A DNA stretch of 64,000 nt. It comes from Daphnia pulex (lineage: Eukaryota; Arthropoda; Branchiopoda; Diplostraca; Daphniidae). A model generated the notes under the pieces. That model searched no databases. It saw only the letters and a list, made by a program, of their open reading frames with translations, and was not told the origin of the DNA. The position numbers and the translations under genes were made by a program. Where the stretch lies: contig NC_060027.1 of the NCBI RefSeq assembly GCF_021134715.1, positions 2,108,001-2,172,000 on the forward strand. The letters run 5' to 3'. This document shows, piece by piece, positions 36,969 to 63,254 of the stretch (positions within the stretch are counted from its first letter, which is position 1; each line of letters begins with the position of its first letter).

Positions 36969-37360
36969 ATGGGTAAATATTCTGTCTTTTACAAAGAGTG
37001 TGGTATATCAATCCTTCTTTTGTTTATGTGTGCTTGTTATAATGTAATATTTATATTTAAATTTATAATTGTCTAGTAAACTGTGGCGTCGTGCTGCTGT
37101 TGTGTGTTGAATCATTAATGGCTGGGTCGACCACTGGTGTACCGATGTCTTCTTGGTATGGCGGATACCAAACCGCAACGCCACCGCCTTACTACCCAAA
37201 AGCAACTTACGCAACGACCAGTTCCTGCACCGAGGTCTTCAAGTACTACACCACTAAAGCACCGGAGTTTTATAGCACAACTTACGCTGCCCCGAGCCAC
37301 TACACTGACGCCATGAAGTTTTACTCTGCCCCGAGTTACTACACCACCAAGGCGACGTAG
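36969..37360 (+). CDS. Tyr/Thr/Ala-rich secreted protein, truncated
   Basis: A four-base first exon (ATG plus one base, 36969-36972) is spliced to 37077-37360, giving about 95 residues. The start MVNCGVVLLLCVESLMAG is a plausible signal peptide. Repeats of the type YYTTKAPEFY and SYYTTKA follow. Such Tyr-rich secreted proteins in crustaceans are likely extracellular matrix, cuticle or adhesive proteins, but this is inference. The frame ends at a TAG after SYYTTKAT, while Tyr-rich repeat sequence continues for another 360 bases in other frames. The protein is therefore probably a shortened remnant of a longer one. Promoter and leader splice sites look intact. Confidence 0.55.
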
Positions 37361-37895
37361 CATGACTACGCATGCTGCCCCATCCTACTACACCGAAGCT
37401 CCTAAGTATTACTCTGTTCTCATCTACTTATTGCACCGATTTTCCTAAATACTACTCTGTTCCCAGCTGCTACACCGAGACTCCCGCTGATTACTACACC
37501 GAAGCGGCAAAGTACTACTCTGCCCCGATCTACACAACCACAACTGAAGCGGCCAAGTATTACGCTGCCCCGACTCACTGCACAGAAGCTGCTCTTTCGT
37601 ACTACGTTGAACAGAAATACTACACCGATGCTCCAGTTCACTACACCACGGCCTACGCTACACCGCAGCCTCCAAGTACTACACCGAAGACGCTGCCTAC
37701 AACAACGTATGCTGCCTAGTTTACTACACCGAGGCTCCCAAGTACTACATCCCTAAGGCGTCGGAATTCTACACGTCTATGCATGCTGCCCCTGCCTACT
37801 CCACCGAGGCCCCGCATTACTACAACACTGAAGCGCTCAAGTACTACATTACAACCTGCGCTACCCCGAGCTACTACACCTACGTCCCGGAGTAT
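37361..37895 (+). pseudogene. Decayed 3' repeats of the Tyr-rich gene
   Basis: The repeats YYTEAAKYYSAP, EAAKYYAAP and YYTDAPVHYTTAYA continue after the stop at 37358 but in a different frame (from about 37430 to 37719). They then shift again, with another stop at 37719. They are the former C-terminal part of the gene just upstream. Confidence 0.65.
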
Positions 37896-37995
37896 TACTG
37901 TGCGTAAAAGGAGTCGTAAGAAAAAAGAAGTGCCCGAACTGCAGTGCCCTATCTGTCACCAACTGTATTCCTCATCGTGTAACCGATTCGCAATT

Positions 37996-38740
37996 ATGGG
38001 TAAATATTCTTTTTTCTATTTGTTAATATGCCTGTTAATATTTAATATTAATGTTTCAATTTATTTACTGTTTAGGCAACTATGGCGTCGAGCTCCTATT
38101 GGGTGTTGTATCGTTGATGGCTGGGTTGACTGCTGGTGTAGCGATGTCTCCTTGGTATGGAGGAAACTGAACCGCAACGCCGCCGCCTTCCTACACAACT
38201 AACGCAACAACCAGTTAATACACCGAGGCCCACAAGTAGGCCTACTACTCCGATCCCAGCTACTATACCGAGGCTCCAGCTTATTACACCATCGAGGCCC
38301 ACCTGTACTACACCACTAAGGCACCGGAGTATTACACCGTATGCTGCTCCAGCCTACTACACCGAGGCTCCCAAGCACTATACCACCAGAGAACCGGATT
38401 ACTACGCGACTACGTATGCTGCCCCAGCTTACTACACCGAGGCTCCCAAGTATTTCTCTGCTCCAGCTTACTACACCGGGGTCCTGAATACTACTCTGCA
38501 CCCAGCTACATACCCACAACTACACAGCGGTTGCTTCATCGTACTACGTTGATCCGAATTACTACCCCGAGGTTCCAGTTTACTACACCAAAATCTACAC
38601 TGTCCCCCAGCTGCTACACCGAAGCTCCTGTTTACTGCAACACCAAGGCATTCGAGCATTATCCCACATTTACGCTTCTCCAACCTACTACACCGAAGCT
38701 CCGAAGTATTACTTGCCCCGAGTTACAACACCACTACAAA
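37996..38740 (+). pseudogene. Second, dead copy of the Tyr-rich gene
   Basis: The same layout recurs: a four-base first exon (37996-37999) followed by GTAAATATTCT, then an exon from 38076 coding GVELLLGVVSLMAGLTAGVAM and SPWYGGN. A TGA at 38168 ends the frame at the point where the first copy continues. The Tyr-rich repeats after it are spread over several frames. The position matching the TATA box of the first copy reads GCGTAAAAG, so the core promoter also appears lost. It is a tandem duplicate that has become a pseudogene. Confidence 0.75.
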
Positions 38741-39292
38741 AAGATCAAAGACTTATTCTAAATCCAAAATTTTTCTTTGTAAATGGAAATTGATCCCTAA
38801 TGAATACACTTTAAATGCGAGTAATTATCTTGTAAGACTTCTCAACACCTCCAAGCATTTTAACATTGCAATGTATTCTGATTTTCATTTTTTGAGCAGA
38901 ACTACTGTTGCTTCAGTTGCTTTGAACAAGAACACTCTGATGCTTGGACGAATTTCATTTAGGCAAGTTACGAAAAAGTTGGTCTTTCCTTTAAACTTAC
39001 TGTTGTATTTTTATTTAACTTAGGGTAACGAATGGATTATGACATATTATGTGATTGGTTCTACATAGATCTTCGGACTCTGCCAATAAATTTTCATTTA
39101 ATGCAAGTCCCTTTAATACCTTGCATTAAATGTAAGTCAATACTCAATCATCTGTTATTAAAGACACAATGAAGAAACATGTTAAAAGGAATTGCTTTAT
39201 TATCCCACCTCCACCCACAATTCCACCACATTTTACAGTCACACATACAAGTCATACATACATACACTTATACACACATACACTTAAGTTAA
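38741..39292. other. Gene-free stretch left of the MITE
   Basis: AT-rich sequence with a short CATACA/CACATA simple-repeat patch near 39.24-39.29 kb. No exon is seen. Confidence 0.4.
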
Positions 39293-42524: not shown

Positions 42525-42565
42525 GAGAAATGCCGAGGTCGCGAGTTCGAGCCTCGCCTGGAGAA
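42525..42565 (+). pseudogene. 3' half of tRNA-Ile(UAU)
   Basis: The sequence ATGCCGAGGTCGCGAGTTCG and the following CCTCGCCTGGAGA match the 3' exon of the intact tRNA at 50585-50716. The 5' half and almost all of the intron are missing. It marks one end of the duplicated block that carries acyltransferase gene A. Confidence 0.9.
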
Positions 42566-43014: not shown

Positions 43015-45908
43015 TCAATCGTTAGTTACAGGCAGTGAATTTCTTTTGGGTTTGGAAGAGAAAATGAGTTTCTCCAAACGTAGGAAAGATACTTCAATTG
43101 AAGCGGATATCGCAAACGCAAGTGCATAAATGACGAAGAAGATACCGAATAGAATGATGAACTGTTCGTACAACCTAAAATAATAACGTTTCCGCACAGC
43201 GGAGTAATACACGTTGAGAAAGTCCCAATGGATCAGGTAGACGCAATAAGTCAACCGGCTAAGTGGTAAGAAACCTTTCCATGATAAGAGCCGGTTAAGG
43301 AAACCTGCATGGACGTCAAATAGAATCACGTTAAAAACTCTACACTAATTGACGATTGGACAAATAATATACCGCCAAAGCCCCGGGAACAAGCGATGAT
43401 GATCCAAGCCATGACACAAGCCCAAGCGGTCCGATGCAGAGGACCGAACACCATCAAAAGATCATAACTAATCTCGTTGATTCCTGATGGAACGACAACA
43501 TTGGGCTTCATACCGTGAATAACGGCAGCACCAACGGCTATGGACACTACCCATCCCATAGCCACAAAAAGCTAAATGAACGCAAATGAATTTTACGGTG
43601 ATAATATATCGACAATGAAATAAAAAATATATTTTACTTTCGATGGTCGAATGGGAGAACATTTTGTGATGTGCAAGATCCAACCTGACAGTATTCCAAC
43701 CAGGTAAGTAGGTGCTCTAATCCACGGTTTGTGACGATAGTCATTACTATATGGTCGGTTTAAGTTTCGCCAAAAAAATATTAAAAAAGTACTTGTCAGT
43801 AGATTATGATGGACTTGATTTTTTCAAAGGAATAATTACAGGTGGGTTTCTGTATTTTTCTCTGCGTAAACCCAAAAGATCGTGGTGTAACAGCCAATTG
43901 CAACGGAGCTCAACCACGCAAGTCCCAATTTCCTCCATCGCCAAAGCGGATAAATGAGAAGTGGAGATACGATTAGGAGTTGCATGAAGACCGCCAGGAA
44001 CCAAGTTTGTCGCATGCACTAACATCCCAAACGTTGAAAAATAATTACAGAATCTCTTTAGTCCAAGCAATTTGCATAGTCGTACATAGTAAAAATGAAT
44101 CTTCTTAACATACCAAATAATTGGGATCCCCAAGAAATAAATTGTTAACTGTCCGAATCATTACGTATGATCATAGAATTAAAAATGAGATTAGAGAAAT
44201 AAGATATTTAAAAAATGAGCTTGGAACTGACTGTAGAGAAACTGTCTCCACCAGGCGAGGCGACAAGCGTTTGAATAAAAATCCACGGTGTACCAATTGG
44301 GTCCGGTGGCGACGTAGACTATTAACGTTGCGATGAAACCGAGGATGAAGGCGTACACAATAGTCAGTCTCAGATATCGATGCAAATAATAAAGGCCGAC
44401 GTTGAATCTGCCCTTGTGACGGTCCAGCTCCCGGAGCAATTGGGAAGATGTGAGCAAACCGCCAATCAAGAAGAAATGGTCGATAAAAATTGACAAATTG
44501 GCGCCGGTTGGAATACCAATTTGTAAGGCTGTCTGAAAGCGATATGAATCAAATTCTTCTTTTAGCTAAGGAAAAAATATTTAATTTGTTTAATTTGTGG
44601 AAACTCACATAAACCATAGCAGTTCTGTTCATAACCCTATCTGAAACAATATAAGCAGTGTTTCCCAAGACGACCCAGCAAGTTGAGAAGAAGCGGATGC
44701 CTGGAATGCAACCAAAATGATCGTCCGAAAACGAAGCTGTCCTCTTCATCGACAGGATTTTACGGCCGTTGTGTAAGACGGAAAAGCATTGCAACGCCCT
44801 CAAGAGTTTGCCGTCCGGTTTGGCATCGAAATCGGTCCCACGGTATATTCGCCAGGCTTCGTGAACGGTTGCCATTACAACTAAAAGACCAACAAGAATG
44901 AACGCCTCTCTGTTGAAACAAAATTTGAAATTCATTAATATGCCTTGTTAATTTAATTTTTTTTTTTTTCAAATTTGATATTACATGACGATAATGGTGA
45001 CACTATCGAAAGAAGGTGAAACACTATTGGCTTTGAAGCAATATCGCTCGTCGGCAATCGTCACGATAGATCGATTGGCTATCACGTAACTTCCAACGAG
45101 TTCGGCAACCGCTTGGCCGAGGTCGGCGGCACTGCAAGACGATGGCAGACAGAATGCGGTGCTGGGGTTGACGTGTGGGTAATTGCCAATTTTGGCATCT
45201 GCCAGGGCCACTTTGGGTTCGATTCGATCCGATCCTAATAATCCCAAGAGCTGAAAAACGGTGACAAAGTTGTCGATCAGAGCCCGTTCTCCGTGGGATT
45301 GGAGATGGAGTGAGGATTCATCTGGCGGAAGAATTTCTGATTGATTGACGACTTCTGACCTAAAGAAGACGGTACAGTACTGCCCATCGAATTCAGGAGC
45401 CCGAATGGCCAGACATTCATCGAACAGTCCATCTGCTTGAATATTTGGCGTGCCATGTACAAATATTCCCGGGGGCAGTTTTGCCGTTGACTCTTGCACT
45501 AATAATTATTTCAAAAACATTTACGGTTAAATAATTCGTCGATATGAATGGGCTGCAGTTAATTTATTCACGATATTGTTTTAACTTACTTTGCAAAGCC
45601 CACAGAGTCCTGTTGCTGTAAAGGCTGCGGACGTACATCTGGCTATCTTCTTTGCACTTTTGATTGATGTTTTTGGCAACAGCGGTGGGAAACGAAGAAG
45701 ATTCCAGTGCTATAAAAATTTTCTTAATTAAGGATATCAAATGGAAACGTTTCCCATTTTCCTCTAGTTGTTCGTTGATGACATTCCACCAATTCTCCGA
45801 GGTCTGACGTTCGCTGTCCGGTGAAATGATGGATCCTTGATCTAAGAATTGATGAGACTGCCTTCCTGATATTAACAGGAGAAAACTAACAGTGTACAAT
45901 GTACTCAT
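43015..45908 (-). CDS. NRF-6-like acyltransferase-3 protein A, active-site His lost
   Basis: Nine exons read leftward: 45908-45590, 45498-44985, 44909-44609, 44532-44232, 44148-44114, 44018-43840, 43746-43638, 43571-43373 and 43304-43015, 748 residues, fully in frame. A signal peptide leads into an extracellular NRF domain with the Cys motif FCLPSSCSAADLGQAVAEL. A membrane acyltransferase-3 domain of about ten helices follows, ending KLIFSSKPK. In this fold an Arg-X10-His motif in the first helix is catalytic; here it reads RFFSTCWVVLGN, with Asn for His. The preceding IHG of the sister genes is IPG, and VDTFFLMSG is IDHFFLIGG. The gene therefore looks expressed-type but catalytically impaired. 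NRF-6 proteins act in lipid and drug transport across epithelia. Confidence 0.9.
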
Positions 45909-46388
45909 CGTGATGAGTGAACTGCTCGGGAGTCGGGAATTTGAGCAAAACTCAAATGACGACTTCCAACATTCACGCAGCAACACGGTGTTTATGCATG
46001 TGTTTTCTGCATACCTTATCAATCTCAGAAGGTTGTTTGCTGTCTCTCTGGAGTTTAGAACTTTATTATCTTTCGAAATCTATATTCAGCCCATAATTGA
46101 TAGTGGACTGCACAATGATTGAAATATAAAACATATTGTTTTCTATCGATAAAGGAACGATCTGAATTTTAAAGTATGCAGCAGTAACTAACCAAACGGA
46201 CCTTAGAATTTAGAAATCAACCCACCAGTTGTAAGAAATGGTGTTAAAGATATATGAAGGGGCGAGAAGATTGTTTGGCTGCTTCCAAGCTGACCAGATA
46301 AGGAGCTGTTGGGGCTCGTCATTCCTTGAGAGGTGCCTTTGAAATACCTAGTTTAGGTAAGGTGGGTATAATTCAATATTGATAATAC

Positions 46389-47460
46389 CTTTTTCAGCTT
46401 CCTCTAACCAGGAATACAGCTCGTGCCACGAGTCGTGATACTCTTTCGTCTCTTTGTAGGAAAAGTCCAGTCTCCTTGTTCGTTCGGCAGATCTTGATAG
46501 GACACGCTCCAAGCAACATGAGGAGGTTCTTGATAAGGATCACATCCTGCTTCTGGATGAAGTACTTTGAGGGGGTCCCATTTTTATTGAGGCTGACGAT
46601 CGCCATCTTCTGAATCGAAAGTCCCATTGGAGGGAATTGTGATGATCAGAGAGACAAAAGTCTCCATGGCGCGGGAGATGGGTTTGAAGCCGCTTAAAGT
46701 TTTCTCGGCATTGGTCAGCCACTTGATGAACATTCGTAGGGATATCATGATATTCCATGGACCTTTCCATGAAATTGATGCAGTTATCCTCTCGTTGAAT
46801 ATACAATGCCGTGACGTAATCCCAGGCGGAATCCATCTCTTGAATTTGTTTCGTCGGTTCGGCTCTTGTTAAAGTCTTCAACAATAGATTCCTTTTCTTG
46901 CATCTCTTCCTGGATCTTATCAGGGTGGGCAGAGATGGGCTCAGCCGATTTCACTTTTTTGAAAGCATTAGTCAAAGCGATGAGCATGCCGTTCAGTTTG
47001 TCAGAGAATTGACTCGTCTCTGCAGACACCTGATCGCAAAGCAGCATACCTGTAATCATAAAAACATAACTGTGATTAATGATTAATAAACATCAACCAA
47101 CTGACAAAATTTAACCGGGAATTGTGCAATTCGATAAAATCGTTGACTTAGCACCTTCTACCTCATTAAGACATAGCTTGGCTAGAGTCCTGCTTGTCTT
47201 GTTCAGTTTTTTCCAAAAGTTGTTTTGTACTCGGCAGCTTCTGACATGACAAGTTTGTTGACTTCCTGTTGACGATCGATCTGTTTGAGGTGAATGGCTG
47301 GATCATCCGCATTTGCCAACGCTTCCTCTCTCTTATCCAGCCAGATGGAAAGATCAGAGTATGAGTCTTCATGGAAATGCTTTGCTTAATGCAGGGCTTG
47401 TTTCAGGATGCTCAATCGGTCCGCGCTCAATTCTGAAACGTGATCCTTAATTTTCTGCAC
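46389..47460 (-). pseudogene. Spectraplakin (shot/MACF) spectrin-repeat fragment
   Basis: Minus-strand pieces match the spectrin-repeat rod of spectraplakins: KIKDHVSELSADRLSILKQAL, WLDKREEALANADDPAIHLK, IDRQQEVNKLVMSEAAEYK, YAALR, AEPISAHPDKIQEEMQEKE, KYFIQKQDVILIKNLLM and RSAERTRRLDFSYKETKEYH. The pieces lie in the right order but in different frames with stops, for example TAA after KQALH. An intron with an ACAG acceptor remains before YAALR, so it arose by DNA duplication, not reverse transcription. A further possible exon lies at 47.52-47.70 kb. The functional gene must be elsewhere. Confidence 0.82.
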
Positions 47461-49434
47461 GATATAATAAAAATCGATCCATTAGAATTTATGTAAAAAC
47501 AAGGAGAAGAATTTATTCTGACCTGATGATTTTCCATCTTCTCAATGGGAAAATGGCAGAATTTTCAGTCTGAGGTGACTGACGAAGCATTGTCGTACTG
47601 GCTGAGAGAATATTGCGTGTACGTCCTTTTTTGCTGTTGCCTCCGGAATTGAAAATGGCTTCAATTACACGAAAAAGCAATACCTTTTCTACTATCAAAT
47701 TCGTCAACACAAGATGATTGGTCATCAGCATATATAATGTGCTAATATTATTGTTATTTTAATGTATGGCATTTCAAGGAAGAAAAAATAAACTGGGGAA
47801 AAAAATTGACAGAAAAAGTTGTACGTGGGAGGCGACATTTAATTGTAACGTTTCCACAAAAATGGAAGTTACAAATTAATGAGTGGCAATAAAGGCCGCC
47901 CATGGTAAAGTGAGGCAAAAGATACGCCCTTATTGAATGTAAAAATGAAAAGAATCAAAATGGAGAACAAAAAAACATTTTAATGAAAAAGAATTAACGG
48001 TTCTCAGAATAATGGAGGAATCTAAAAGAAGTTCAAACTATTTAGTTATTGTTCCACCATTCTAGCCTGTCTTATGGGCTTGTTATGGCTTATGGCTAGT
48101 ACTAAAAAATAACAAAAGAGGAAACCACAACATACCTTCAGTTGACGTCCAAATATCCGTACATTCTGAAACAGTCTTGGTATGGATGCGTCAATCAGAA
48201 TCACAGACGGAAGGAGTAAACGAGGAATAAGCGGCCTCCTGAATACATGCATACTCGCATGAATGTACACGGAGGACAAGCCAAAAAGGGAAGAAGTGGA
48301 AGAAGGACAAGAGTTTGCAGTGTCGAAAATCCACTTCACATCTAGGAACTAAGTTAAAATTTATAACAATTAAGAGTTGTACATGTTAACTGTAGTTGTA
48401 GTGTTATAGTAATCTAATGTTACCAGTAACCATGCATGTGCTAAAAATGATTTTTTTTTGGCACCAGGAATCCAAGTGAGTCAGGTGGAAGTGAAAAAAC
48501 TTATCAGTCTCCAAATTTCTCAAGTCCTGGAACAAGTAGAAAAGAATTAGGCTGCCTGTCAACAGTAGACGTTCTTCTCACTGGCTAGCTATTTATAGCA
48601 AACATTACTTTGCTGTTCAATGAGGAGATACATTTAATGTTGATCAACATGTAGATTGGAATTCCTGCAATTTGAGGCAAAAGAAACATGGAGTAACTGA
48701 CATTGAATACTCAATACACCTTCTGAGGTGCTTCACAGTTACAGGCAACTTCAACAGCCACACAGTAACGTTTAAGGTCCAGATGCTATCTTTTTGTTGC
48801 ATCACAGTCAAGTGATTCTGTAAATAAAGAAACACTAATTATACATAGAAAACAGTCTCATATTCAGCACAAAGAGATTTAGAAATTCAAAACAAGTGAA
48901 ACAATGCATGGCTTACTTCTTTAATGCTTCTTGCACAAATGTAATTCGAGAATCTTGCGGCAGTTAAGACATCCCTTGATTTGACTGCTTTTTATTCAAC
49001 AACTTTTAAGAGACGGGCAGTAGCACCAGTGGATTAAACATTGACAATTGGTTGATTGAAAAATCAAAGAAAACTTTACAACTACTTTGTCGAACGCTTA
49101 GTACAATTTCCTTTTAACATGTGCTTCTTCTGTCAAAGATCACGAAAACACTAATTACAGACGAACTTCCGTGAGAAATTGAGACTGAGAGCCAATGTAC
49201 AATGTTGCCAGTTTAGGGATGCACGCAACCGCGCCGCCACAACGCAAATTTTTTTTTCAAAAATGAATATCTGGAATAAATAATTATATAAAAACTTTGA
49301 TTAATAATTAAAAAAAAATTGAACAAGTTTATTATTTCATAAGTCGTTTCATATATCGAGCAAAATCTGAATGCCATCTACACTTAATCATTTGTACTCG
49401 TTCACGATCGAATTTTGCTCTAGGAGCGACTTGC
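47461..49434. other. Gene-free stretch
   Basis: About 2 kb without a supported gene. A block near 48.20-48.31 kb resembles 58.75-58.87 kb (shared words around GTACACG and GGGAAGAAG). Open frames are short and lack domains. Confidence 0.35.
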
Positions 49435-50413
49435 TTTTAACAAGCGATCTCCCACTCAACCGGACCGAAATGGTGGGGGTACTTTTCGGATCGTAATCCG
49501 GAAAAGAACTTTACAAATCCGGACTAGGTCTAATCTGTTCAGAATCGCAAGGCGATTCCAACGGAATTAAGTCCGGATTTTTATCTTTTCCCGTTCACGA
49601 GATAATCACGGTTGAAAATCGTGAAATATCACGAAAACCCAAAGTCTCCCCGTTCGACTACATCGCTTTTAGCCGTATATTCGGCTTGTAAAAAAAAACT
49701 AATTGATACAAAATGTAGCCCTTTCATCCCTCTTTCAGAATCCAAAAGGATTTTTTATAATTCTTTGAGATGTTTGAGATATCACGATTTTTGTGATACC
49801 CCCATTTCGACAAATTTGTCAGGCATTTCATTCGGCGTTGCCGATTGCCGTATATGTGCTTTTCGCCCCCTTTCCTGTCCACTCCTTCGCTTTTTCCCTG
49901 TTTCCTATGTATCAAGGCCTTGTATATCGATACAGATGGGACTTGATACATAGGAAACAATGGAAAAAGCGAAGGAGTGGGGGCGAAGTCACATATACGG
50001 CAATCGGCAACGCCGAATGAAATGCCTGAAAAATTTGTCGAAATGGGGGTATCACGAAAATCGTGATATCTCAAACATCTCAAAGAATTATAAAAAATCC
50101 TTTTGGATTCTGAAAGAGGGATGAAAGGGCTACATTTTGTATCAATTAGTTTTTTTTTACAAGCCGAATATACGGCTAAAAGCGATGTAGTCGAACGGGG
50201 AGACTTTGGGTTTTCGTGATATTTCACGATTTTCAACCGTGATTATCTCGTGAACGGGAAAAGATAAAAATTCGGACTTAATTCCGTTGGAATCGCCTTG
50301 CGATTCTGAACAGAATAGACCTAGTCCGGATTTTTAAAGTCCTTTTCCGGATTACGATCCGAAAAGTACCCCCACCATTTCGGTCCGGTTGAGTGGGAGA
50401 TCGCTTGTTAAAA
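49435..50413. mobile_element. Fold-back element, arms of about 475 bases
   Basis: Left arm 49435-49915 and right arm 49943-50413 are near-perfect reverse complements around a 27-base loop. The left arm has one ten-base insertion, near CCTTTCCTGTCCACTCC, that explains the length difference. The outer ends read TTTTAACAAGCGATCTCCC. No clear target-site duplication is visible and nothing is coded. It resembles a fold-back type non-autonomous DNA transposon. Confidence 0.85.
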
Positions 50414-50584
50414 ATCCCTGGGAGATTTTCCATTTGAAGGCTTATAGGGTGTTTATTTGCCGGGTGTTGAGTCTTTAACTATTTTTACTGTTTATATAGT
50501 GCACAGAACATTCAGAACAAGGCATGATTCTGAATGGCATTCTTTTTACTGCGGTCATATTTACAATACGTGCTCCAATTCATG

Positions 50585-50716
50585 TCTCCAGTGGCGCAGT
50601 TGGTTAGCGCATGGTACTTATATGTCAGTAGTCACGCATATCCAAATAATCATCATTCGATGATACCAGAATTGAAAGAAATGCCGAGGTCGCGAGTTCG
50701 AGCCTCGCCTGGAGAA
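50585..50716 (+). tRNA. tRNA-Ile (UAU) with 58-base intron
   Basis: The 5' exon TCTCCAGTGGCGCAGTTGG to CTTATA ends one base after the TAT anticodon, as expected for tRNA introns. The intron spans about 50623-50680. The 3' exon ATGCCGAGG with T loop GTTCGAG and CTGGAGA closes the acceptor stem. Eukaryotic tRNA-Ile(UAU) genes usually carry introns. A lone copy of its 3' exon is found at 42525-42565. Confidence 0.93.
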
Positions 50717-51281
50717 TTTAATTTAACTGTTGTCTGATTTGGCTGAAAGTTAACCATGTATATTAAGTTTAACCTAAAAGCAAGCTATGAGCAACGGTGC
50801 TTGTCCCAGTCCCATTAGTTGCAACAGAATTGTGTGTGAACACTACGAGAAAAACATTTTGTGCTTCAGAATTAATACCCTTTAACGTCATTGAATTTCA
50901 GGAGACCGTCGTGAGTTGAGAGTATCGTTTCATCATATGCAATTTTCCTTGCCGCAAGCCAGACTCGATCTTTCAAACTTTCGTTGCCACATGGGTAGCT
51001 AACGCCCTAATCAACATGGCTATTTCTCACGATATGACAGTTAAGTAAGAACAAGAAAAACAAAATAAAACGGTTTATTTAAATTCAATGAGGGTGTGCT
51101 TTTGATTCCAATATTGACGCATAATTGAAATTAAATTTTGACTAAAAAGCGATGGTTTTTCAACTCCACAATCATACCATCCCCATAAAGGTTTGTGCTC
51201 CGCTATAGAGTAATGACGAACCTTGATTTATTAATCTAAGAGTTTGGAAGGATAAACTTCCTTTAGGCTGTGACGCGCGTG
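50717..51281. other. Downstream flank of acyltransferase B
   Basis: This part belongs to the duplicated block and resembles 42566-43014. It holds the tRNA downstream flank and the 3' UTR of gene B. No other exon is seen. Confidence 0.5.
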
Positions 51282-54146
51282 TTAATCGTTTCTTTCGGGC
51301 AGTGAATTCCTTTTGGGTTTGGAAGAGAAAATGAGTTTCTCCAAACGTAGGAAAGATACTTCAATTGAAGCGGATATCGCAAACGCAAGTGCAAACATGA
51401 CTAAGAAGATACCGAATAGAATGACGAACTGTTCGTACAACCTATAATAATAACGCTTCCGCACAGCGGCGTAATACACGTTGAGAAAGTCCCAATGGAT
51501 CAGGTAGACGCAATAAGTCAACCGGCTAAGTGGTAAGAAACCTTTCCATGATAAGAGCCGGTTAAGGAAACCTGCATGGACGTCAAATAGCATTACATTA
51601 CAAACTCTGAACTGATTGACGATTGAGCAACACAATACCTCCATATCCCCGAGAACAAGCGATGATGATCCAAGTCATGACACAAGCCCAAGCGGTCCGA
51701 TGCAGAGGTCCGTAAATCATCAATGCATCATAACTAACCTCGCTGGTTCCGGATGGAACGACAACATTGGGCTCCAGAGCATGAATAACCGCAGCACCAA
51801 CGGCTATGGACACTACCCATCCCATAGCCACAAAAAGCTAAATGAACAAAATTAATTTGACGGTGATAATTGATCGTGAAAAACATGTAAATGAAACAAT
51901 TTTTACTTTCGACGGTCGTCTAGGAGAACATTTTGTGATGTGCAAGAGCCAACCTGCCAAGATTCCTATCAGGTAGGGCGGAGCTCTAATCCATGGTTTG
52001 TAACGATAGTCAACACTATGGTCGGTTCACGTTTTGTCACGAAAATAAAAGTTAAAAACAATCTGTCAATAAATTATGAAGGACTTGATTTTTTTTTAAT
52101 AGGAATTAATTACATGTGGGTTTCGGTATTTTTCTCTGTGTAAACCCAAAAGATTGTGGTGTAACAGCCAATTGCAACAGAGGCCAGCAACGCAAGTCCC
52201 AATTTCCTCCATCGCCAAAGCGGATAAATGAGAAGTGGAGATACGATTAGGAGTTGCATGTAGACCGCCAGGAACCACGATTGTCTCATGCACTGCCATC
52301 CAAAAAAAAATAATTACCGAATCTTTTGAGAAAGAAGCCTTTTGCATAGCATAAATGAATCTTCTTAACATACCACATAATTGGGATCCACAGGAAATAA
52401 ATTGTTAACTGTCCGAATAATTTCGTATGATTATAGAAATTCAAAATCAGATTAAAGATAAGAATTGAGACATTTAAAAAATGAGCTTGGAACTGACTGT
52501 AGAGAAACTGTCTCCACCAGGCGAGCCGACAAGCGTTTGAATAACAATCCACGGTGTACCAATTGGGTCCGGTGGCGACGTAGACTATTAAAGTTGCAAT
52601 AAATCCAAGAACGAAAGCGTACACAATAGTCAGTCTCAGATATCGATGCAAATAATAAAGGCCGACGTTGAATCTGCCCTTGTGACGGTCCAGCTCCCGG
52701 AGCAATTGGAACGTTGTCAGCAAACCGCCAATCAAGAAGAAATGGTCATTAAAGATAGAGATATTTACAGTAGATTGAATACCAATTGCTTTGAATTTCT
52801 GAAAAGCGATATGAATCAAATTCTTTATTTATAGGTTATGAAAAAATATTTAATTTGTTAAACTCACATCAACTAGAGTATTCTTGTTCATAACCCTATT
52901 GGAAACAACGTAAAAAGTGTTTCCCATGACGACCCAGCAAGTTGAAAAGAAGCGAATGCCTGGAATGCAACCAAAATGATCGTCCGAAGACGAAGCTGTC
53001 CTCTTCATCGACAGGATTTTACGGCCGTTGTGTAAGACGGAAAAGCAGTGCAACGCTCTCAAGAGTTTGCCGTCCTGTTTGGCATCGAAATCAGTCCCGC
53101 GGTACATTCGCCAGGCTTCGTGAACGGTCGCCATTACAACTAAAAGACCAACAAGACTGAACGCCTCTCTGTTGAAACAAAATTTGAAATTCATTATTAT
53201 GCCTTGTTAATTTAATTTTTTTCAAATTTGATATTACATGACGATAATGGTGACACTATCGAAAGAAGGTGACACACTATTGGCTTTGAAGCAATATCGC
53301 TCGTCGGCAATTGTAACGATAGAATGATTGGCTATCACGTAACTTCCAGCGAGTTCAGCAACCGCTTGGCCGAGGTCGGCAGCACTGCAAGACGATGGCA
53401 GACAGAATGCGGTGCTGGGGTGGATGGATGGGTAATTGCCAATTTTGGCATCTGCCAGGGCCACTTTAGGTTCGATACGATCCGATACCAATAATCCCAA
53501 GAGCTGAAAAACGGTGACAAAGTTGTCGATCAGAGCCCGTTCTCCGTGGGATTGGAGATGGAGTGAGGATTCATCTGGAGGAAGAATTTCCGATTGATTG
53601 ACGACTTCTGACCTAAAGAAGATGGTACAGTACTGCCCATCGAATTCAGGAGCCCGAACGGCCAGACATTCATCGAACAGTCCGTCCGCTTGAATATTTG
53701 CCGTACCATCAACAAACATTCCCGGGGGCAGTTTAGCCGTTGACTCTTGCACTACAATGATTGTTAAAAAAAACCTTAATATGAATGGGCTGCAGTTAAT
53801 TTATTCACGATATTAATTTTGACTTACTTTGCAAAGCCCACAGAGTCCTGTTGCTGTAAAGGCTGCGGACGTACATCTGGCTATCTTCTTTACACTTTTG
53901 ATTGATGTTTTTGGCAACAGCGGTGGGGAACGAAGAAGATTCCAGCGCTATAAAAATTCTCTTAATTAAGGATATCAAATGGAAACGTTTCCCATTTTCC
54001 TCTAGCTGTTCGTTGATGACATTCCACCAATTCTCCGAGGTCTGTCGTTCGCTGTCCGGTGAAATGATGGATCCTTGATCTAAGAATTGATGAGACTGCC
54101 TTCCTGATATTAACAGGAGAAAACTAACAGTGTACAATGTACTCAT
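51282..54146 (-). CDS. NRF-6-like acyltransferase-3 protein B, active-site His lost
   Basis: Nine exons read leftward: 54146-53828, 53751-53238, 53168-52868, 52798-52498, 52408-52374, 52292-52114, 52015-51907, 51837-51639 and 51571-51282. It has 748 residues and exon sizes identical to gene A. Signal peptide, NRF domain and acyltransferase-3 helices are all open. The motif reads RFFSTCWVVMGN, again Asn in place of the catalytic His, and the following conserved block is NDHFFLIGG. Exon 4 begins with a stretch (KFKAIGIQSTVNISIF) that differs most from A. The shared loss dates the change to before the A/B duplication. The protein would sit in an endomembrane or plasma membrane; a binding or carrier role without catalysis is inference. 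Confidence 0.9.
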
Positions 54147-55068: not shown

Positions 55069-58000
55069 TTAAGTCGTAGGCTTTTTACCTTTGGGTTTTG
55101 AAGAGAAGATAAGTTTCTCCAAGTTGAGGAAAGATGCTTCTAACGTGACGGAAATCACAAATGCCAGTCCAAAAACGACGACAAGGACGCCAAAGTAAAT
55201 TGAAATCTGTCCGAATATGGTGTAGTAGTACTGCTTCCGCATGGCGGAGTAGAACACGTTCAAATAATCATAATGGATGAGGAAGACGCAGTAAGTCAAC
55301 CGGCAGAGTGGTAGGAAACCCTTCCATGAAAGTACATGGTTAACGATACCTGCGTTAAAGATAATCTTATGCCAATTATTTGAATTAATAGTGACACGGA
55401 TAATAGATGATAAACCTCCATAGCCACGTGAGCAGGCAAAGATGATCCAGGCTATGACACAAGCCCAGGCCGTTCGGTGCAAGGGTCCGTAGGAAATTTT
55501 GACAGCAAAACTAATCTCGGCCACTGTTGACTGATTGACGTACGGCGACAGACCGTAGACGATGGCCAGAGCGACAGCTGTAGATAATATCCATCCCAAG
55601 GTCACCGAAATCTGTTTTACGAAAATGGTTATTTTGATGAAAATTATGTCAACAAATATATTGGATAAATTGGTGAGGTTGAAAATTATACTTTCGACAG
55701 CCGACTGGGAGAATTTTTAGTGATGTGCAAGAACCAGCCTGCCCAGATGCCAACCAGATAAGGTGGTGCTCTTGTCCAGGGTTTATAATAGTAGTGATTG
55801 AAGTAGTTAAATGCTGTTTCGTATTCATTGCTATCCCTGTCACAGAGAAAACAAAATGAAAGTTTCGTAAATTTAGTTTTACGTTTTTCTTATGTACGGT
55901 CGTGTGGCCACATAATTAGGGGGCAGGTCATCTCTGACGTAGAGGTAAAAGATGAACGCGTGACAGGCGAGTACAACAGCGGCCAGCCAGGCAAGTCCCC
56001 ATTTCCTCCATCGCCAAAGCGGATAAATGAAGAGAGGAGAGACGACAAAGAGTTGCATGTCCACCGCAATGTACCATGTAGGGTTCATACACTGTCGTCA
56101 ATAATTGGAAACAATTAGATGACACCACTATAAGTGAATATTTGGATTTAATGAAATTCTTACCGAGTAATAAAGGTCAAAAGGAAACAGATTATTAACT
56201 GTAAAAATTAATTGGGACAAATTAATTGGAATTTGAAAAAAGTTCCAGCAGTTAAAAAATTTGAAAACTCACTGTAGAGAAATTGTCTCCACCAAGCGAT
56301 ACGACAAGCGTTTGAATAAAGATTCACGGAGTACCAATTTGGACCGGTACCGACGTAGACTATTAAAGTTGCAATAAATCCAAGTACGAAAGCGTACACA
56401 ATCGTCAGTCTCAGATATCGATGCAAATAATAAAGGCCGACGTTGAATTTGCCTTTGTTGCGGTCCAGCTCACGCAACAAAAGGTACGACGCAAGTAATC
56501 CGCTCATCAATAGAAATGTGTCAACGGAAACGGATGCGTTGGCAATCGTTTGCATACCCCAGCCGTAAGCGTCCTGCAATATTTCCAAAGTAAATAAAAA
56601 TTCAATATTAGATGTTGTAAAATAAAATGTATGCAACTTTCTAACCATTAAAACGGCTTTAGGATTCATCGTTTTATAACTGATGTAGCTCCATGTATGT
56701 CCCAAGACGACCCAGCAAGTTGATAAGAAGCGGAGGCCGTGAATGCAACCGAAATTGTCTCTAGAAGCTGCTGCGGTCGGCACTTTCATCGACAGGATTT
56801 TACGGCCGTTGCTGAGGGCCGAGAAACAATGCAATGCGCTCAAGAGTTTTCCATCCTGATTGCTGGCATCGGTCCCGCGGTACATTCGCCAGGCTTCGTG
56901 AACGGTCGCCGACAAAACCAGCAGACCGACAAGACTAAACGCCACTCTGTTCAAAGCAATTTAGATAATCTTTTACAGCATATCTCACAGTTTTTATGTT
57001 GAATTACATTACGGTAATTCCAGGACCATCGATGTTAGGAGGATCGTAACTTTCTTTGAAGCAGTATTGCTCGTCTGTCACGGTCACGATGGAAGAATTT
57101 GCGATGACGTAACTGCCAATGAGCTCGGCGACCGCTTGGCCCAGGTCGTCGGCACTGCAAGATGATGGAAGGCAGAAGCTGATGCTGGGCAAGGTGTAAG
57201 TGTAAGCATCTGCTGTGGATACTTTCGGCTCGACCCGATCCGGTCCCAAAAATCCCAAAAGCTGAAAAATGGTGATAAAGTTAATCCGTTCCTGATCTTC
57301 GTTACTGGTGGATTCTGACGGTGGAAGAATTTCAGACTGATCGACTGCCACTGGTTGAAAGAAAACGCTGCAGTACTGTCCATTGAATCCAGGTGCCCGA
57401 ACGGCCAGACATTCGTCAAACAGCCCATCCGCGTGAATATTGTATGATCCAAATAATCCCGGCGGTAGATCCCCCGTAGATTCTTGCACTAGTTCACAAA
57501 GAACCAAAATTATCATGTTTACGTTAATACATTGATCCGGCATAGTAAGAATTATGCTTAATCTGTAATCTGAGCTTTGCCTAAAGGCAGTCTAAAGAGC
57601 AATGACCGATAGTATACTTATCAAAAGCGTTCGACTGTTTCAATTTGAACTATAATATTGCGCCAAAATCATTTCTCTATCACCGTTCGTTACATATCAG
57701 CAAGAGCCACAGTGATAGTGTAACAAACAAACGTAGATGAAACATTGTGGGTTCAACAACCTTTCGTCACTTTAAAAGATAAACCAAATAGTAATAACAA
57801 TTGTGGTGCATTTTAAAAGAAATACCTGTTTAGATCTTCAAATAACATGTCGTTAAAAAAGAAAAGAACATCTAGCCTAATTTAACTTAATTGTTTAAGC
57901 CTAATTATCACGTTCTATTTAACTTACTTTGCAAGGCCCAAAGAGTCCGGTTGGCGTAGAGGTTGCGAACGTAGAATTGGCTGTCTTCTAGGCACTGTTG

Positions 58001-58243
58001 GCTGATGTTTTTGGCAACAGTGGTGGGGAACGAAGAAGATTTGAGCGCGTACACAATTTGCCGTAACAGCGAAATGAAATCGACATTTTCTCCAGTGTCA
58101 TTCACTTGCTCTTGGCTGTGGTTCACCAACTTTTCCCATTTTCTTTCACTGCTTTGCGCAATTTTCAGCCCAGGAAGCATCAACAGTTGGGATTGTCCTC
58201 CTGCCAGCAGCAGGAAAAGGCCCAACGTCCAAACCCAGTTCAT
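55069..58243 (-). CDS. NRF-6-like acyltransferase-3 protein C
   Basis: Nine exons read leftward: 58243-57928, 57488-57008, 56946-56646, 56573-56273, 56198-56164, 56091-55898, 55836-55692, 55611-55416 and 55349-55069, 749 residues. The signal peptide (MNWVWTLGLFLLLAGG) leads to an NRF domain with FCLPSSCSADDLGQAVAEL. The acyltransferase-3 motif is intact: IHGLRFLSTCWVVLGHTW (Arg-X10-His), then VDTFLLMSGLL and DRNKGKFNVGLYYLHRYLRL. It is presumably an active O-acyltransferase of the ER or plasma membrane; the substrate is unknown. Intron 1 (about 440 bases) is long for the family. The last exon may instead splice at KPKG to 55029-54980, which would replace the tail by about 16 residues. Confidence 0.92.
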
Positions 58244-60060: not shown

Positions 60061-63000
60061 TCACGCCTCGATTTTTTTATGCTCAGCATTTGTTTTCTCG
60101 TCCACGGGAGGAGCGGTTATTTCTTCACGAGGTTTACCTGTAATTCAATCACAAAATAATTTTATGAAAGGATCACGTTTGATATTATAGTTTGGTTACT
60201 TTTGGATTTGGAAGAGAAGATAAGTTTCTCCAAGTTGAGGAAAGATGCTTCTAGCGTGACTGATACTAGGAACGCTATCCCAAAAGTCATGACGAGGAGG
60301 CCGAAACAAACTGTGAATTGCTCAAACAACGTGTAGTAAAAGCGTTTCCGCATGGCGGAGTAGTAGGCCACAAGGAAGTCATAGTGGATCAGGTAGACGC
60401 AATAAGTCACCCGGCCAAGCGGTAAGAATCCTTTCCATGATAGTAACCGATTCACGATACCTGTGCGCAATGAAAATTTATACATGAAGGTCAAAATGAT
60501 GTGGAACTGATTAAATAATAATACCTCCATAGCCTCGTGAGCATGCGAAAATAATCCAGGTTATAACAAAAGCCCAGGCTGTCCTGTGCAGAGGACCGTA
60601 AGTCATTTTGAGGAGTGAACTGACCTCGGGCACTTTTGATGGGTCGACATAAGGCGCCAAACCATAAACGATCGCCAGACCGACCGCTGCGGACAATATC
60701 CATCCCAAAACCACCAAAGGCTTAAATAATGAATTAATTATTAATTGTAAAGGCAAATTGCTAAATTACAAATTATTTACCTTGGCCAATCGACCCTGGG
60801 ACTGTTTGGTTACGTGCAAGAACCATCCTGCCCAGATGCCCACAAGGTAAACTGGCGCTCTTGTCCACGGTTTGACGTAATAGTGATCATAATAATCGGC
60901 TGTAGTGGCCAAATCATCACTTAATAAATACAATGTTTAATTAATTGTGTGAAAGTAGAATGTTCCGGGATAACAGCACATACGCGCGCGTGACCCAAAG
61001 AGTAGGACTGAGATCGTCTCTTGCGTAAATGAAGAAGATTACACCTTGACAGATGAGTGCAACAGCGGCCAGCCATACAAGTCCCCATTTCCTCCATCGC
61101 CAAAGCGGATAAATGAAGAGAGGAGAGAAGATAAACAATTGCATATCAACCGCCAGGTACCACGTTTGACCCATGCACTACCAGAAAACATATTTTTAAC
61201 AGATGAATAAAATTGATTCGTTTTCGGATCTTATTACCGCATAATCAGCATTCAAAGGAAACAAATTGTTAACTAGGGAAAACAAATCAATGTGTCAGAT
61301 TAAAAATAATGAACTTTTTAATTTTTACGAATGTAAACGTACTGTATAGGAATTGTCTCCACCAGGCGAGGCGACAAGCATTTGAATACTTATTCACATC
61401 GTACCAGTTGGGACCGATACCGAAGTAGACGATTAAAGTTGCGATGAAGCCAAGGATGAAGGCATACACAATCGTCAGTCTCAGATATCGGTGCAAATAG
61501 TAAAGGCCGACGTTGAATTTGCCTTTGTTGCGGTCCAATTCACGGAGCAAAAGAAACGATACAAGTAAGCCACTCATCAAGAAAAATGTGTCTACCGAAA
61601 CGCTGGCGTTGCCAATAGTTTGCATGCCCAATGTTCGAAAATCCTGAAAAAATAATGATTGAGCATGAATGATTGAATGGAATGATTGATTGTTTACATA
61701 ATGAACTATTGTTATAATATTTTACCTCGGTTACCGCTTTTCTATTCATGATCTTGGCTGCAGCAATCCCAAAAGTGTGGCCTATGACGACCCAGCAAGT
61801 TGAGAAGAAGCGGATGCCGTGAATACAGCCGAAATTGTCGTTCGAAGACGAAGCTGTAACTTTCATCGACAGGATTTTACGGCCGTTGTTTAAGATCGAA
61901 AAACAATGCAATGCGCTTAGGAGTTTCCCGTCCTGTTTGGCATCAAAGTCAGTCCCGCGGTACATTCGCCAGGCTTCGTGAATGGTCGCCATCAAAACAA
62001 AGATACCGACAAGACTCAGTACCACACTGTTAACAATAAAAATTAATTTGATAATTTCGTCTATGGTTATTTGTTAAAAGCTTTTGAATTAAATTACATG
62101 ACGGTGATGGTGGCTCCATCAAATGTCGGCGGATCGTTGTTTTCTTTAAAGCAATATTGCTCGTCAGTCACGGTCACGATGGAATAATTTGCGATGACGT
62201 AACTGCCAATGAGCTCAGCAACCGCTTGACCGAGGTCGGCAGCACTGCAAGATGATGGCAGGCAGAATGTGGTACTAGGATAAATGTAAGTGCTGGCATC
62301 CGCCACGGACACTTTTGGCTCGACCCGATCCGATCCCAATAATCCCAAAAGCTGAAAAATAGTGACAAAGTTCCTTCTTCCTTCGTGGTTCTCATTGAAT
62401 GATCTCGGAGGTAGAATTTCGGACTGATCGACTGCCACTGGTTGAAAGTAGACGCTGCAGTATTGCCCATCGAATCCGGGTGCCCGAACGGCCAGACATT
62501 CATCGAAAAGTCCATCCGCGTGAATGTTACGTGATCCAAATAACCCCGGTGGAAGCTTGGCTGAAGACTCTTGCACTATTTTTTAAATAAATAATTAATG
62601 AATTACACAATGTTTGTCCCAAATTTCGAGATGTGATAATCACTTGTTATCTAATCATCGTTACCAGATGTCATTAGTAAGTGAAAATAAGGTCATTGTT
62701 CAATCTCTAGTCACCTTTTGCATCCTTCATTATCAGTTCTTTATACGACAGAGAATATAATAATCAATACAATTCAACCTTTGTAACATGACTAATAGGA
62801 CAGATCTTCCACACACATCCGCCATGTCATTCAACGATATCGTAAACACGCTATTACAACATTTTTTTAAACACATAGTTCAGTTTTGAATATTATTCCA
62901 TGATTATTATTAATGCAGCTTCTTTTTCAACTTACTTTGTAAGGCCCATAGACTTTGGTTGGCGTAAAGGTTATGAACGTAATACTGGCTATCTTGTAAA

Positions 63001-63254
63001 CATTGTTGACTAATATTTTTAGCCACCGCCGTTGGGAATGAAGAAGATTTGAGTGCGGCGAAAACGTTGTGAAGTGTTGACGTTAAATCAAAAGTGGACC
63101 CACTTTCCTGAAGTTGTTGGCTAATTATATTCCTCCACTTTTCAAAAGATCGTTCACTCTCCGGTGAAATGATTAACGCCGGATTTATGAATTGTTGAGA
63201 CTGGCCTCCTACCCAAAGTAGAAGAAAGGTAATCTTCCACAGCATGGAACCCAT
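60061..63254 (-). CDS. NRF-6-like acyltransferase-3 protein D
   Basis: Core exons read leftward: 63254-62936, 62575-62098, 62026-61726, 61643-61343, 61272-61238, 61177-60984, 60919-60781, 60720-60525 and 60460 onward. Read through, exon 9 ends at a stop at 60162 (753 residues). If spliced at 60200 (AAAA|GTAACC) to 60137-60061, the protein ends KPREEITAPPVDEKTNAEHK and a short tail (766 residues). Both are in frame. The Arg-X10-His motif is intact in RFFSTCWVVIGH, as is VDTFFLMSGLL. The NRF domain has FCLPSSCSAADLGQAVAEL. The start could be the first Met or the one three codons on. It is likely active, with unknown substrate. Confidence 0.92.

Follow-up and report, generated by a model that had tools for sequence, protein, structure and literature searches.

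Two tandem NRF-6-like acyltransferase-3 (AT3) genes of Daphnia pulex, here called A and B, have lost the His of the R-X10-H motif together with several nearby residues, and have kept complete reading frames under selective constraint as well as residues linked to acyl-CoA binding. Our best reading, which we hold at about even confidence, is that both encode transfer-deficient proteins that still bind acyl-CoA or lipid, in a binding, carrier or regulatory role. The two genes lie with the neighbours C and D in the window, the 64,000-nt stretch of DNA that was analysed (Table 1).

Table 1. Positions in the window of the four genes and of the codons at three changed sites
Feature	Coordinates	Strand	Description	Structure	Basis
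Gene A	45908..43015	minus	NRF-6-like AT3 protein without the R-X10-H His	9 exons, 748 aa	hand-built model and Pfam
Gene A exons	45908-45590, 45498-44985, 44909-44609, 44532-44232, 44148-44114, 44018-43840, 43746-43638, 43571-43373, 43304-43015	minus			
Gene B	54146..51282	minus	sister of A, same losses	9 exons, 748 aa	hand-built model and Pfam
Gene B exons	54146-53828, 53751-53238, 53168-52868, 52798-52498, 52408-52374, 52292-52114, 52015-51907, 51837-51639, 51571-51282	minus			
Gene C	55069..58243	minus	His-bearing neighbour	9 exons, 749 aa	hand-built model
Gene D	60162..63254	minus	His-bearing neighbour	9 exons, 753 aa	hand-built model
Asn361 codon	A 44660..44662; B 52919-52921	minus	AAC at the R-X10-His place		arithmetic from exon coordinates
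His397 codon	A 44476..44478; B 52742-52744	minus	CAT at the predicted lumenal start of TMH2; Thr in 17 others		
Residue 501 codon	A 43986..43988; B 52260-52262	minus	Phe TTC in A, Tyr TAC in B; Asp in 17 others		

Gene structure and domain content

Nineteen NRF-6-like genes, a lower bound for the genome, were modelled, namely A, B and 17 others. The nine in-frame exons and 748 residues that an earlier, sequence-only reading had reported for both A and B are borne out by the hand-built models, in which every intron is bounded by GT-AG and no internal stop is found. When a spliced aligner was given protein D as query for a check of the modelling, the separately built gene C model was recovered, apart from 6 nt where exon 7 begins and the final 12 nt. 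Protein A scored 74.7 bits against the Pfam family Acyl_transf_3 (PF01757; cut-off 31) and 56.8 bits against the N-terminal NRF family (PF20146; cut-off 27), and all four proteins A–D matched both families at E <= 0.001. Eight ORFs, five of them from a coiled-coil-like stretch between A and B, gave no Pfam match above cut-off.

Residues lost and kept

The R-X10-H place reads GIRFFSTCWVVLGN in A and GIRFFSTCWVVMGN in B: R350 is retained, and residue 361, which is His in 17/17 other paralogues, is Asn. The gene models thus agree with the earlier statement that C and D carry the His and that A and B carry Asn. When aligned, WecH of E. coli and Oac of phage Sf6 have their His at this place, and mutation of the equivalent His of OafA (H25A) left 0.33% of the signal (PMC7448272, partial text). 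Five more changes near H361, at positions invariant in the 17 others, are common to A and B, namely V395I/N, T397H, Y497F, D501F/Y and F505L, and all of these except T397H had been missed by the sequence-only reading. By the predicted topology, H361 and the five positions would lie on the lumenal side. Two motif changes that the same reading had pointed out are present in A and B and are weak as markers: the His of IHG, which became IPG, is His in 13 and Asn in 4 of the other 17 paralogues, and within the change of DTFFLMSG to DHFFLIGG the step from MSG to GG says little, because this Ser is also Gly in the His-bearing paralogue I2 and OafA S45A retained 98% of the signal (PMC7448272, partial text). 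T397H takes two or more base changes (ACN to CAT) and adjoins the invariant D396. D501 stands five residues past the invariant W496, as Glu143 does past Trp138 in OafB, both of which are named as important and extracytoplasmic (PMC9833829, partial text), and by our own mapping the two acids would correspond. Among WecH and Oac, the only bacterial AT3 proteins aligned, Oac has Glu and WecH Ile at this place; since WecH is an AT3 enzyme, an acid here is not universal.

The residues linked to acyl-CoA binding (R350, F398, R430, R433 and Y672) are all retained, as are G403 and H678. Thus TMH3 has its RxxR (R430, R433), and TMH9 has its SxxxY (S668, Y672) plus H678, although the Ser of SxxxY is found in only 8/17 other paralogues. 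Residue 372 is Asn in both proteins, and 20/20 invariants of the NRF part are retained. The sequence-only reading had suggested lipid or drug binders; because donor-side residues are kept, acyl-CoA would be the likeliest ligand.

Against 113 columns that are invariant among the 17 other NRF-6-like genes, 12 are changed in A, 10 in B, 13 in either and nine in both. Each of the other genes, compared with its 16 fellows, has 0–11 changes (P 11, I2 6, the remaining 15 genes 0–5), and seven other gene pairs have 1–10 changes in either member and 0–5 in both. The total for A and B is therefore high and not unique, and its being matched by the divergent gene P counts against our best reading. What is distinctive for A and B is that nine changes are shared, and at which sites; none of the 11 changes in P falls on a named pocket site. 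For the AT3 part, invariants lost in both genes are 6/14 in three pocket segments and 3/70 elsewhere (Fisher P 0.0005), and those lost in either are 6/14 and 7/70 (P 0.007), with segments that were picked post hoc in both comparisons.

Selective constraint

Codon models, for which we used our own code and not PAML, gave a dN/dS of 0.20 for the background, 0.42 for the A/B stem and 0.39 for the A/B tips, with similar tip and stem results across four topologies; the NG86 value for A versus B is 0.33. Neutrality is rejected for the stem (2dlnL 29.5), for the tips jointly (29.1) and for A alone (9.6), and only marginally for B alone (4.5, or 3.5 with P about 0.06 when the lumenal loop is left out). 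Moreover, there is no coding indel between A and B, where the intron rate would predict about 60, and there is no stop, compared with about 16 expected without selection (0/2000 simulations were stop-free). Neither a broken frame nor neutral evolution is seen in the pair, with B alone borderline, and A and B are not ordinary pseudogenes. The dN/dS of A and B since their split and the absence of coding indels uphold the description of both genes as retained in the sequence-only reading.

Constraint differs along the protein. Residues 415-494 (the TMH2-3 link, TMH3 with RxxR, and loop 3-4) have a dN/dS of 0.13 in the tips and in the background, TMH2 went from 0.03 to about 0.5, and the C-terminal part 516-748, with the donor residues of TMH9, shows relaxed constraint (0.50 versus 0.18), so that constraint on the donor side is not uniform. 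This relaxation and the marginal result for B alone both speak against the best reading. On the A/B stem the branch-site test is not significant (2dlnL 1.5), with a posterior of 0.97 for H397.

The lumenal TMH1-TMH2 loop (residues 367-394) differs between A and B at 28/84 nt, above the intron rate of 0.191. Its tip dN/dS is 3.27 (2dlnL 17.7 versus 1) if the branch lengths are those estimated for the gene as a whole, and a branch-site test on the A/B tips gave 2dlnL 8.8; letting the local rate vary freely on all branches gave a dN/dS of 1.86 (2dlnL 3.5), and doing so on the tips gave 0.78 with a 4-fold rate. Synonymous differences are also raised there (7.5/73.5 fall in 19/516 sites), and 9/18 differing codons of the loop carry two or three changes, compared with 14/110 elsewhere. 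We do not claim positive selection in the loop, a region that was picked after the hot spot had been seen. The same loop in E1/E2 has no excess. Gene conversion was considered as the source of the A/B loop and rejected, in that genome DNA searches with the A and B loops returned each only itself, a weak result as the sister loop was also missed.

Interpretation

We propose that the common ancestor of the duplicated NRF-6-like membrane proteins A and B may have lost its lumenal transfer residues (H361, D501 and neighbours) and maintained its NRF domain at the N-terminus, its transmembrane core and its donor residues for acyl-CoA. Acyl transfer would then be gone and acyl-CoA or lipid binding in the conserved channel would persist, and A and B could be partners with a binding, carrier or regulatory function, perhaps for C and D, their neighbours of the active type. 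The integrity of the genes, the residue pattern and the constraint are shown here; the topology, the lack of activity, the ligand and the partner we infer. Of the retained pseudo-enzymes seen by the sequence-only reading, 'retained' therefore stands and 'pseudo-enzyme' is plausible: in those bacterial AT3 enzymes that have been studied this His never varies and is essential, but the related active enzyme HGSNAT has Asn, His397 was gained, and Tyr672 and His678 were kept.

It is possible, though we think it unlikely, that acyl transfer persists in A and B in the manner of HGSNAT, with Asn361 holding the thioester and His397 or His678 as the base, and that the altered lumenal loop and TMH4 face serve a new acceptor. 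HGSNAT has Asn where AT3 proteins carry the TMH1 His (PMC12423673, partial text), and its N258 forms a hydrogen bond to the acetyl group, H269 lying about 5 A away (PMC11357348, partial text), which favours this possibility, as do the shared two-base step to His397 beside D396 and the Ser-Tyr-His catalytic motif named for 59 C. elegans OAC proteins (PMC12799122, partial text), which is probably the TMH9 motif left intact in A and B. However, the HGSNAT His stands 11 residues past the Asn, where A and B have Asn372, and D501 was replaced by Phe in A and by Tyr in B, as expected if the site is dispensable. Rather improbable is the fuller scenario, in which an AT3 protein swapped its TMH1 His for Asn, acquired a new His where TMH2 begins and so converged on an HGSNAT-type Asn/His centre with a new acceptor. 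Several features weigh against transfer deficiency: Asn361 is the native residue of active HGSNAT, GWT1/PIGW has activity although it lacks the catalytic His of HGSNAT, Tyr672 and His678 are intact, and the new His adjoins Asp396.

Little probability attaches to decay, that is, to constraint that relaxed after loss of function in genes young enough to remain intact. The about doubled dN/dS on the stem and both copies, a loop faster than introns and the weak constraint on B would fit, but the missing indels and stops argue against it, as does the long constrained stem, which says little if the losses fell late in it. We are still more doubtful that the TMH1 His is non-catalytic in NRF-type proteins and that A and B are normal enzymes whose substrate preference has changed: tests of catalytic residues in NRF-type proteins were not found in the partial texts consulted and the TMH9 Tyr/His pair is intact, but 17/17 paralogues have the His and several other pocket positions changed alongside it. 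An error of assembly or gene modelling, such as a wrongly joined tandem copy, is very improbable; the array is tandem and comes from one assembly, but A and B (90% amino-acid identity) differ in each of their eight introns and at 162/2247 coding sites, share their losses, and have every exon in frame.

NRF-type AT3 proteins are important for yolk and lipid distribution. A tandem pair with donor residues kept and lumenal transfer residues gone, beside the intact C and D, is a natural separation-of-function experiment, and comparing A/B with C/D could show whether NRF-6-like proteins are enzymes or acyl-CoA/lipid carriers. The Asn/His alternative offers a test of how AT3 and HGSNAT centres interconvert and, if true, would mean that a transmembrane acyltransferase was rewired in nature following a gene duplication.

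Comparison with known systems

By descent A and B are relatives of acyltransferase-3 (PF01757) and fail its active-enzyme signature R-X10-H. They share with bacterial AT3 proteins (OafA/OafB, OatA, Oac, WecH) the TMH1 Arg, TMH2 Phe/Gly, TMH3 RxxR and TMH9 Tyr, and differ in the missing R-X10-H and in the lost TMH4 acid (by spacing, OafB Glu143; Glu in Oac, Ile in WecH). Their NRF and AT3 domains together form the membrane architecture of NRF-6 and NDG-4 of C. elegans and Drop-dead of Drosophila (PMC12423673, partial text). A catalytic His, not further specified in the text seen, is said to be retained by the 59 protein-coding OAC genes of C. elegans (PMC12799122, partial text), whereas in A and B the TMH1 His is missing. 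A literature search found no AT3/NRF pseudoenzyme, a PDB profile search gave one weak match (E 0.19), and phage tblastn gave no match. In HGSNAT (YeiB/HGSNAT family, TmAT superfamily) the Asn maps to the place of N361 (PMC12423673 and PMC11357348, partial texts), and the R247-N258 spacing equals that of R350-N361 if, as we assume, R247 is the motif Arg; A and B differ in the position of the His, which is new at 397, in carrying an NRF domain and in belonging to Pfam AT3. Like pseudoenzymes in general, A and B have lost a catalytic residue with the frame maintained under selection.

Gene structures and the family in the genome

A and B are sister NRF-6-like acyltransferase-3 (AT3) genes without the His of the R-X10-H motif, and C and D are their His-bearing neighbours. 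All four have nine exons apiece with GT-AG introns, identical intron phases and no internal stop, which for A and B confirms the intact, in-frame 748-residue reading frames proposed in the sequence-only reading. Pfam matches to PF01757 and PF20146 were found in 4/4 genes at E <= 0.001, and in A both Acyl_transf_3 (PF01757) and NRF (PF20146) exceed the cut-off. Protein A shares 90% identity with B, 62% with C and 64% with D.

Features of the window (window positions)
Feature	Position	Strand	Remarks
Gene A	45908..43015	minus	NRF-6-like, 748 aa, hand-built model
Gene B	54146..51282	minus	NRF-6-like, 748 aa, hand-built model
Gene C	58243..55069	minus	NRF-6-like, 749 aa
Gene D	63254..60162	minus	NRF-6-like, 753 aa
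Lumenal loop 367-394, A	about 44644-44485		A/B comparison; intron 3 between
Lumenal loop 367-394, B	about 52903-52751		A/B comparison; intron 3 between
tRNA-Ile(UAU) gene	50585-50716		intron-containing; aragorn with introns
Copy of tRNA-Ile(UAU) 3' part	about 42530-42565		downstream of A
Inverted repeat	49435-49869 + 49979-50413		arms 435 nt, 97% complementary, spacer 109 nt
Short frame-shifting ORFs	46350-47760	minus	between A and B; coiled-coil/spectrin-like by eye
Open frames	37061-38760	plus	Tyr/Pro-rich repeats (YYTEAPKYY-like)

Because the 3' part of the tRNA-Ile gene is copied downstream of A, the A/B duplication unit seems to extend into that gene. The inverted repeat between A and B is a foldback or MITE-like element. 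Five of the short ORFs between A and B gave no Pfam match over the cut-off, nor did the one ORF tested among the Tyr/Pro-rich frames give any.

Searching the genome (133.19 Mb, 13 contigs) with D, one divergent paralogue, PF01757 and PF20146 gave 15 further NRF-6-like genes, and thus at least 19, the searches scoring best candidates only. The further genes showed no stop or frameshift in spliced-aligner models, some of which have only an approximate first exon or gene end; in such models a false intron could mask a lesion. PF20146 recovered 18/19 loci, missing A, and no additional locus. The R-X10-H His is present in 17/17 genes outside A and B, and aligns with the equivalent His in WecH from E. 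coli and in Oac from phage Sf6. Ten paralogues (I2, K, M1, M2, N1-N5 and P; L042-L049) have an exon 4 interrupted after 164 nt, and in A-D, E1, E2, G1, G2 and I1 it is unsplit, at 301 nt; this intron gain or loss marks the clade containing A and B.

Selection on A and B

Between A and B, dS is 0.16 and dN 0.05 (NG86). Codon maximum likelihood with our own code (9 genes, 715 codons) gave a dN/dS of 0.198 for the background, 0.42 for the A/B stem, 0.38 for A and 0.40 for B, so that constraint on A and B is about halved. Neutrality was rejected for the tips (2dlnL 29.1), the stem (29.5), A alone (9.6) and B alone (4.5), and tip and stem results agree across four topologies; with residues 362-396 left out, 2dlnL was 3.5 for B alone (P about 0.06) and went up to 15.2 for A. 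The sequence-only reading had proposed dN/dS as a check on A and B being retained pseudo-enzymes, and the tip values favour retention. The eight introns differ between A and B at 114/596 sites and by 17 indels in about 632 bp, a rate at which about 60 coding indels would be expected, and about 16 stops would be expected without selection; none of either was seen, indicating that selection maintains both frames.

Regional dN/dS (branch lengths fixed)
Region	Background	Stem	Tips
TMH1	0.23	0.31	0.65
TMH2	0.03	0.54	0.49
TMH4	0.10	0.24	0.32
NRF	0.18	0.38	0.22
Residues 415-494	0.13	0.15	0.13
Residues 516-748	0.18	0.54	0.50

These values indicate that transmembrane helix (TMH) 3 with RxxR and loop 3-4 are constrained as in the rest of the family, and that TMH2 is strongly relaxed, as is the C-terminal part including TMH9. 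The donor side of A and B is retained residue by residue and is not uniformly unrelaxed.

The divergence burst in loop 367-394 is real: A and B differ there at 28/84 nt, exceeding the intron rate. Many of its codons carry multi-base changes. Loop tip dN/dS was 3.27 with the local rate fixed, 1.86 with it free on all branches and 0.78 with it free on tips; the cause may be selection, conversion or a single mutation event that altered several bases.

Residues changed and kept

Among 113 columns invariant in the other 17 genes, 12 are changed in A, 10 in B, 13 in either and nine in both. The nine include H361N, V395I/N, T397H, Y497F, D501F/Y, F505L, Y554R and N728R, and the ninth is an invariant Arg within a loop deleted from both. 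As controls, comparing every other gene with the remaining 16 gave 0-11 changes (P 11, I2 6, the remaining 15 genes 0-5), and in seven sister or neighbour pairs 1-10 columns were changed in at least one member and 0-5 in both. The A/B count is therefore high but near that of divergent P, and the distinguishing feature is location. With topology taken from the cytosolic TMH1 Arg, following the OafA and TmAT superfamily papers, changed sites would map to the lumenal end of TMH1 and the starts of TMH2 and TMH4, where 497, 501 and 505, being spaced by four, would share a helix face. In the AT3 part, for segments picked post hoc, 6/14 pocket invariants are changed in both genes versus 3/70 elsewhere (P 0.0005), and 6/14 versus 7/70 in either (P 0.007). 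Two accessory markers of the sequence-only reading proved weak: residue 347, the IHG His, is His in 13/17 other genes and Asn in 4/17, and the Ser402 to Gly change of the MSG block also occurs in I2 (L042, C12 1655975-1659003), in which MGG replaces MSG in TMH2 and the His is retained.

A and B retain R350, F398, G403, R430, R433, S668, Y672 and H678, and 20/20 NRF-part invariants. The superfamily study (PMC12423673) assigns to the acyl-CoA site the TMH1 Arg, the Phe/Gly of TMH2, the TMH3 Arg and the Tyr of TMH9, which lie mostly on the cytosolic side; residues particular to each family, the AT3 His being one, line the extracytosolic end. On this map A and B look like the donor half minus the transfer half.

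Function and comparison with known systems

C. elegans NDG-4/NRF-6 reportedly have roles in lipid distribution and yolk. In Northern krill, nrf-6 is reported to be the top-ranked gene for exon-wide FST when Atlantic and Mediterranean animals are compared, with missense variants enriched in its extracellular part, and one D. magna NRF transcript is reported 14-fold up with copper and 28-fold with zinc. In literature excluding most subscription journals and bioRxiv preprints, searches for an AT3 pseudoenzyme and on NRF and the catalytic histidine turned up no such pseudoenzyme. A and B are likely pseudo-enzymes, or possibly rewired enzymes, in the NRF/AT3 family.

The simplest reading of the sequences is that transfer would be lost and the donor channel kept. 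In OafA, R14A, H25A and D39A are each reported to leave <0.4% of signal, and S45A about 98% (PMC7448272). Possibly, A and B are instead rewired enzymes, since active HGSNAT likewise carries Asn (Asn258) at the AT3 His place, where it bonds the acetyl group and His269 lies some 5 A from it (PMC12423673, PMC11357348), and A and B have gained His397 adjoining Asp396, a change needing at least two base changes; however, the HGSNAT His spacing is occupied by Asn in A and B. C. elegans OAC proteins with the domain are described as retaining a catalytic His and a Ser-Tyr-His motif (PMC12799122). We think that this motif is the TMH9 one; since A and B retain it, their activity would then be less improbable. 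D501 is among the sites changed in both genes. Its spacing from W496 in the family equals that of Glu143 from Trp138 in OafB, five residues; OafB Glu143 is described as an important residue on the extracytoplasmic side (PMC9833829). At the D501 place Oac has Glu, but WecH has Ile.
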